Source: an uncultured Bacteroidia bacterium
Lineage (GTDB): Bacteria > Bacteroidota > Bacteroidia > J057 > CALAJH01
DNA length: 64,000 nt
Direction of reading: 5' to 3'
Assembly (NCBI GenBank): GCA_937922655.1
Contig: CALAJH010000011.1
Location: 1 to 64,000 of the forward strand
Shown: in pieces, positions 40,102 to 40,948 of the stretch
Position numbering within the stretch: the stretch's first letter is position 1
How the letters are laid out: each line of letters begins with the position of its first letter
Notes under the pieces: model-generated
Databases searched by the model: none
The model's input: only the letters and a program-made list of their open reading frames with translations
What the model was told of the DNA's origin: nothing
Program-made: the position numbers and the translations under genes

Positions 40102-40881
40102 CTAGCGAAACTTAATCTCGAATTCGTGCATCGTTCGATGCTCTTCCTTGTTGATTAACAAAACGTGGAGGGCGTACGAGTGAGCTTGGTCGTATTTGGC
40201 GACGGCATGGAAGTCGAAAGGAAACTCGGGCTCGCCGTTGAACGTAAAATCTTTTTCAAAAATAACGTTTTCGTCGCCGTGGGAGGTTTTGTGGCTGTGG
40301 CCGTCCTCTTTTTTGATTTTAAATTCGGCCTTTTCCAAGCCCGCGGACGCAATGCTTTTTATCAAGCCTTTGATGTGTAAACGAAGGCTGTCGGAATGCG
40401 TAAATTCGATATGTTCGCTCACGTCTTGACCGTTTACTTTAAAGTTAAGAAGAGCGGGCATTTCGGGATGCATAAGCGTCAAGTCGATTTCGACGAACGC
40501 GGCCTCGTTGCCTTCTTTATCGGTGCAATAAAGCATGACGTGATAAAAGCCGGCGGTGGCGTTGGCGGGAATGGGAATTCTGAAATCGTGCACGAAGCTT
40601 TTGCCCGAAAGCGAGACGATTTGGTTAAACGCGAACTTTTGCGACGCGGTTTTATGACTGTGGCCGTCAAACGCATCGTGGATTTCTATTTTTGCGCTTC
40701 CGAGTTCACGGTCGTCGGAAAAGGCGGCGGAAATAACGAGCGTGTCGCCGGCGGTGGCCGAGATTTTCAATTTGTTTTGATTGACGGCAATAACGGGCTT
40801 GACCACGTCGGGGTCTTCTTTCTTTTTGCATGCCGTTAGCGCGAAAACGGCTACGGCGCCCAGATAAAGGAGTTTTTTCAT
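40102..40881 (-). CDS. Histidine-rich DUF4625 lipoprotein, probably metal-binding
   Basis: A 259-residue lipoprotein. The start at 40881 gives MKKLLYLGAVAVFALTAC with lipobox LTAC (Cys18) followed by KKKEDP; an upstream in-frame ATG would lie inside the operator region. Two DUF4625-like beta-sandwich domains are visible (about 30-145 and 150-259). Each has a histidine-rich loop: DAFDGHSHKTASQ in the first and KEDGHSHKTSHGDEN in the second. DUF4625 lipoproteins are Bacteroidota specific and often sit with metal or heme uptake genes. The HxH clusters suggest binding of a transition metal (inference). The promoter is overlain by two TTGCAAC palindromes, implying tight regulation. Confidence 0.85.
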   Translation of the reverse strand: MKKLLYLGAVAVFALTACKKKEDPDVVKPVIAVNQNKLKISATAGDTLVISAAFSDDRELGSAKIEIHDAFDGHSHKTASQKFAFNQIVSLSGKSFVHDFRIPIPANATAGFYHVMLYCTDKEGNEAAFVEIDLTLMHPEMPALLNFKVNGQDVSEHIEFTHSDSLRLHIKGLIKSIASAGLEKAEFKIKKEDGHSHKTSHGDENVIFEKDFTFNGEPEFPFDFHAVAKYDQAHSYALHVLLINKEEHRTMHEFEIKFR

Positions 40882-40888
40882 ACTTTTT

Positions 40889-40948
40889 ATTTTTGCAACT
40901 TGGTTGCAAAAATACGACAAAATCCTCTTTTGCAACCACGTTGCAGAA
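40889..40948 (-). promoter_or_regulatory. Two tandem TTGCAAC-N3-GTTGCAA operators on the lipoprotein promoter
   Basis: Copy 1 (40889-40913) is a perfect 11-bp inverted repeat with a TTG spacer. Copy 2 (40928-40948) is a 9-bp inverted repeat with one mismatch and a CAC spacer. Centres are 37 nt apart. Copy 1 covers the -7 box; copy 2 covers the -33 region. The architecture is that of a repressor operator; the palindrome resembles targets of Fur-superfamily metalloregulators, but the regulator is not identified. Confidence 0.75.
40907..40914 (-). promoter_or_regulatory. -7 box TATTTTTG of the lipoprotein gene
   Basis: On the minus strand (40914-40907), an exact TAnnTTTG match. Transcription would start near 40901, about 20 nt before the ATG at 40881. 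A GTTG at 40936-40933, 18 nt upstream, may serve as the -33. Confidence 0.6.

Follow-up and report, generated by a model that had tools for sequence, protein, structure and literature searches.

The window, meaning the whole 64,000-nucleotide stretch of contig C11 that was analysed, carries a minus-strand gene for a lipoprotein of the DUF4625 family, ahead of which two palindromic operators lie on the promoter (Table 1). The encoded protein has a signal peptide with an LTAC lipobox, a DUF4625 domain at residues 17-128 (PF15418, E = 2.6e-29, 102.6 bits against a cut-off of 27) and a His-rich sequence, in which the two HSHK loops reported in an earlier, sequence-only reading appear in the translation as two GHSHKT loops. 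A PDB sequence search with the lipoprotein gave no significant match, and its single-sequence AlphaFold model reached a pLDDT of 46.6. On the plus side of the operators nothing obvious is encoded up to an SRP-type GTPase gene at about 41787, which we take by eye to be Ffh.

Table 1. Features of the DUF4625 lipoprotein gene and its promoter, in window positions
Feature	Position	Strand	Description
DUF4625 lipoprotein gene	40102..40881	-	259 aa; ATG begins at 40881
Operator 1	40893..40909	none	perfect TTGCAAC-N3-GTTGCAA
-7 box TATTTTTG	40907..40914	-	DUF4625 lipoprotein promoter; fits TAnnTTTG
Operator 2	40930..40946	none	TTGCAACCACGTTGCAG, one mismatch to TTGCAAC-N3-GTTGCAA
TTG fitting -33	40933..40935	-	within right half of operator 2; placed by known promoter spacing

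The sequence-only reading had described a perfect 11-bp inverted repeat and a near-perfect second copy on the -7 and -33 regions of this gene. The perfect repeat stands, but its arms reach 12 bp (TATTTTTGCAAC at 40888-40899 and GTTGCAAAAATA at 40903-40914); the second copy is as near-perfect as claimed, and the two operators lie 37 bp apart from centre to centre. The -7 promoter consensus of Bacteroidota is TAnnTTTG. Within the minus-strand sequence ahead of the lipoprotein ATG, CTGCAACGTGGTTGCAAAAGAGGATTTTGTCGTATTTTTGCAACCAAGTTGCAAAAATAAAAAGT, the final three bases of the -7 box are the opening bases of operator 1 (offset -5), and the TTG fitting -33 lies 18 nt upstream of this box in operator 2. 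Each promoter element therefore has bases in common with an operator, which bears out the placement originally proposed. The 12-bp arms at 40888-40914 also create TATTTTTG -7-like boxes on both strands.

Across a set of 39 operators, TAnnTTTG stands at offset -5 on the gene strand of 12, against 3 on the opposite strand, with other offset clusters at +22 to +24 and +32 to +34. The operator TTG can also form the end of the -7 box, as in those 12 cases, or serve as the -33 TTG; the window promoter unites offsets -5 and +32. Furthermore, tandem sites 36-39 bp apart were found again in several other genomes. This spacing nearly equals the separation of the -7 and -33 elements, which may be the reason for it. 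Since the operators overlap promoter elements, we infer repression rather than activation.

Frequency of the motif in the genome, order and class

The reversed version of the TTGCAAC-N3-GTTGCAA pattern served as the control. In the window, 5 matches with up to three mismatches compare with 4.6 expected, and operators 1 and 2 are the sole matches with 0 and 1 mismatch. Loose matches in the window's own genome are noise, because 22 sites with up to two mismatches compare with 45 for the reversed pattern; 18 other matches were examined there, and every one but C1:213653 is contained in a reading frame at least about 190 aa long. At up to one mismatch the same genome has 5 sites against 0 in the control. 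Among 22 genomes of the order, 58 sites with up to one mismatch (4 reversed) and 11 exact sites (0 reversed) were found, and 295 genomes of the class hold 21 exact sites (0 reversed). Several sites fall within coding sequence and are chance-like (L054-L056, L153 and L177).

Upstream regions of DUF4625 genes carry a site with up to two mismatches in 11 of 40 cases; the reversed pattern gave 0 of 40 and shuffles gave 0.25%, with a slight overlap between the samples from the order and from the class. Occurrence is bimodal in this sample (n = 40), many of the genes having no box, and at up to two mismatches none precedes the second DUF4625 gene of the own genome (C5). Many, not all, of the DUF4625 genes without a box are His-poor. 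The motif is thus neither randomly placed genome-wide nor absent upstream of orthologous lipoprotein genes, the two outcomes that the sequence-only reading had set against its own proposal.

Chance or structural palindromes without a regulator would account for the abundance of loose matches in the own genome, and the AT-rich operator ends do resemble a -7 box. However, the exact and one-mismatch sites are far above the control and are concentrated ahead of genes of a single functional class, and the probability of this explanation is negligible; the occurrence of the motif is not due to chance.

Genes adjoining the motif

The promoter-placed sites of the own genome are the C11 pair, C16:59290 and C2:8200, plus C1:213653. 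The C16 site lies in the promoter of a ZIP transporter (PF02535) and the C2 site in that of a ZnuD-like TonB receptor (ZnuD model E = 5.7e-35, far under the cut-off), both belonging to the gene types, metal transporters and TonB receptors, before which the sequence-only reading had suggested looking for the motif. The C1 site (L002 1501-1517) reads TTGCAACCCAATTGCAA, has TATTTTTG at the -5 offset as in the window, and lies ahead of an S46 dipeptidyl-peptidase gene (Dpp7 model E = 2.5e-143) with no obvious zinc link. MerC was not found in this genome, and the cobW model gave three weak matches, one of them the neighbouring GTPase gene.

A family scan of 39 proteins adjoining order-level sites, chosen by adjacency alone and including the neighbours of chance sites, identified 11 MerC proteins, 8 TonB receptors, 2 COG0523 proteins, 2 DUF4625 proteins and one each of DUF1826, FUR and ZIP. 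Other His-rich lipoproteins and short Fur-family regulators are also among the motif neighbours across genomes. The COG0523 GTPases adjoining the motif have a His-rich loop, and in one genome (G079) DUF4625 lipoprotein genes come after a box-bearing TonB receptor on the same contig. For the motif-adjoining TonB receptors, ZnuD and hemin are the best models, with similar scores. In the manner of a Zur box, the motif is a conserved odd-centred palindrome overlapping the promoters of zinc-uptake genes, and it is most likely a zinc-repressor (Zur) site, because it is found again before zinc-uptake and zinc-sensor genes across the class.

Further gene contexts were observed beside the box. At L173 (site 1515) it precedes a minus-strand gene (726-1439) whose product matches the LCIB-type beta carbonic anhydrase family and, judged by that family, could possibly fit zinc-sparing. 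Small secreted or membrane proteins are encoded directly beside the box at L045 (1521-1859, His-rich, ahead of a TonB receptor), L044 (1549-1947, ahead of a DUF4625 lipoprotein gene) and L181 (1107-1529, His-rich). In five genomes (L048, L157, L167, L175 and L176) a box-bearing MerC gene and a LolD-like ABC ATPase gene point away from each other.

Fur-family proteins and the candidate repressor

The window contains no Fur gene, in agreement with the sequence-only reading; the two Fur-family proteins of the genome are encoded at C11:93205, 29 kb beyond the window end, and on C38 (C38:8531). The C38 protein is a short Fur/Zur-like protein of 131 aa (PF01475 above cut-off), and most genomes of the order have one long and one short Fur form. 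Short and long forms are split in a maximum-likelihood tree (support 100/97, with long branches), in which the own short Fur and every motif-bearing Fur gene fall on the short side. Both CxxC pairs (C89, C92, C125 and C128), as well as H84, H86 and C97, are kept in 28 of 28 short Fur sequences, and the own protein has the structural CxxC...CxxC zinc site. Position 78, a possible sensor ligand, is Cys in 23 of the 28; the sensing site of the own short Fur is uncertain because T78 replaces this usual Cys. Compared with solved structures, the protein matches Zur (4mtd, E = 2.3e-6) and FurB (2o03, E = 1.3e-4). The NCBIfam Zur model gives 28 bits against a cut-off of 167, and the best NCBIfam scores are for the Fur and PerR models, all far under cut-off.

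The motif was found in the short-Fur promoters of six genomes (L052/L133, L135, L057 and L060-L062, the last three representing one genus), and the long-Fur promoters that were examined had no match with up to two mismatches. The own genome has a candidate cognate Fur-family gene, for which the box lies in the gene's own or adjacent promoters in relatives, the promoter of the own short Fur gene being without the box. One genome, G021, has no short-form Fur that could be found and no site, and is the sole order genome of that kind; G009 has a short Fur and no site at up to one mismatch, and in G005 the short Fur appears only as a fragmentary, sub-threshold match.

The boxes could be iron-responsive targets of the long Fur, with the lipoprotein and receptor importing haem or iron, given that 19 of the 22 order genomes yielded a long Fur and that hemin and ZnuD models score the motif-bearing receptors alike. 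This is very unlikely, however, as the motif occurs in short-Fur and not in the examined long-Fur promoters, and the genes most often found with it encode MerC, DUF1826, ZIP and COG0523 proteins, the last with a His-rich loop, rather than being Feo or siderophore genes. On the comparative evidence, the regulator is most likely Zur, responding to zinc, and not Fur, responding to iron.

The regulator may also belong to another family, for example of MarR/AdcR, LacI or MerR type. The motif is unlike described Fur or Zur boxes, and the GATAAT-type 7-1-7 core of the classical Fur box is missing from the sequence, as had been recognised from the start. TTGCAA-like halves can occur in LacI-family operators. 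Nevertheless, the palindrome is odd-centred (17 bp) like Fur-family boxes, whereas LacI-type operators are usually even, and Fur-family genes are the sole regulator genes found adjoining sites, making a non-Fur regulator quite unlikely. The steric repression by a Fur-superfamily protein first suggested for this locus is favoured by the presence of the motif in short-Fur promoters of several genomes and ahead of zinc-type genes.

Proposed zinc control and comparison with known systems

It is highly probable that the tandem palindromes are Zur boxes repressing a DUF4625 lipoprotein used in zinc acquisition, with the short Fur encoded on C38 as the candidate repressor. Under sufficient zinc, a dimer of a short Fur-family protein (the 131-aa protein being the candidate) would occupy each box, one dimer over the -7 element and the other over the -33, and RNA polymerase would be kept off. 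When zinc is scarce the repressor would depart and the His-rich lipoprotein would be made. At the outer membrane it probably captures zinc destined for two proteins with the same box in their promoters, the ZnuD-like TonB receptor and the ZIP permease.

More broadly, we lean towards the view that Bacteroidia use an undescribed Zur box within promoter elements to control new zinc-acquisition families, most often MerC-type small membrane proteins, with DUF4625 lipoproteins as receptor partners. If true, this would reveal the sequence bound by the zinc repressor in a major bacterial class, suggest a likely function for DUF4625 and for Bacteroidota MerC proteins, and make zinc acquisition in Bacteroidia testable straight from sequence. 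Bacteroidota are not mentioned in a 2018 review of Zur regulons (0 occurrences; PMC6103462), and in a 2009 study of COG0523 the copies linked to Zur came mostly from other phyla (PMC2770081). The literature search, which covered papers and not databases such as RegPrecise, found no Bacteroidota Zur box and no paper on DUF4625, and priority is not certain. As far as found, the box sequence has no earlier description, and the type of regulon (Zur) is already known.

The Zur regulons of Bacillus, Streptomyces, E. coli and Caulobacter likewise have an odd-centred palindrome in the promoters of genes for COG0523 proteins, TonB receptors and ZIP transporters, and Fur-family boxes in general are odd-centred (7-1-7 or 9-1-9; PMC6103462). 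The paired-box layout has precedent, because B. subtilis yciC and S. coelicolor znuA each have two Zur boxes on the -35 and -10 elements (review, PMC6103462), the same layout as the window pair. Unlike in these regulons, the box here is fitted to Bacteroidota -7/-33 promoters, its main targets are MerC and DUF4625, and its sequence, TTGCAAC-N3-GTTGCAA, differs from the boxes of that review and from the proteobacterial Zur box GTTA-N5-TAAC (PMC4176598). Similarly, ZnuD and Caulobacter ZnuK-ZnuL are TonB receptors under Zur, resembling the receptor here in its Zur-type box and in ZnuD being its best NCBIfam match, although the receptor scores far under the ZnuD cut-off and, in G079, the box-bearing receptor is followed by DUF4625 genes. 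XusAB of B. thetaiotaomicron, a receptor and lipoprotein for xenosiderophores (PMC12574912), offers an analogy in which a surface lipoprotein and a TonB receptor cooperate to take up metal, but XusAB takes up ferric siderophores, whereas the metal here would be zinc.
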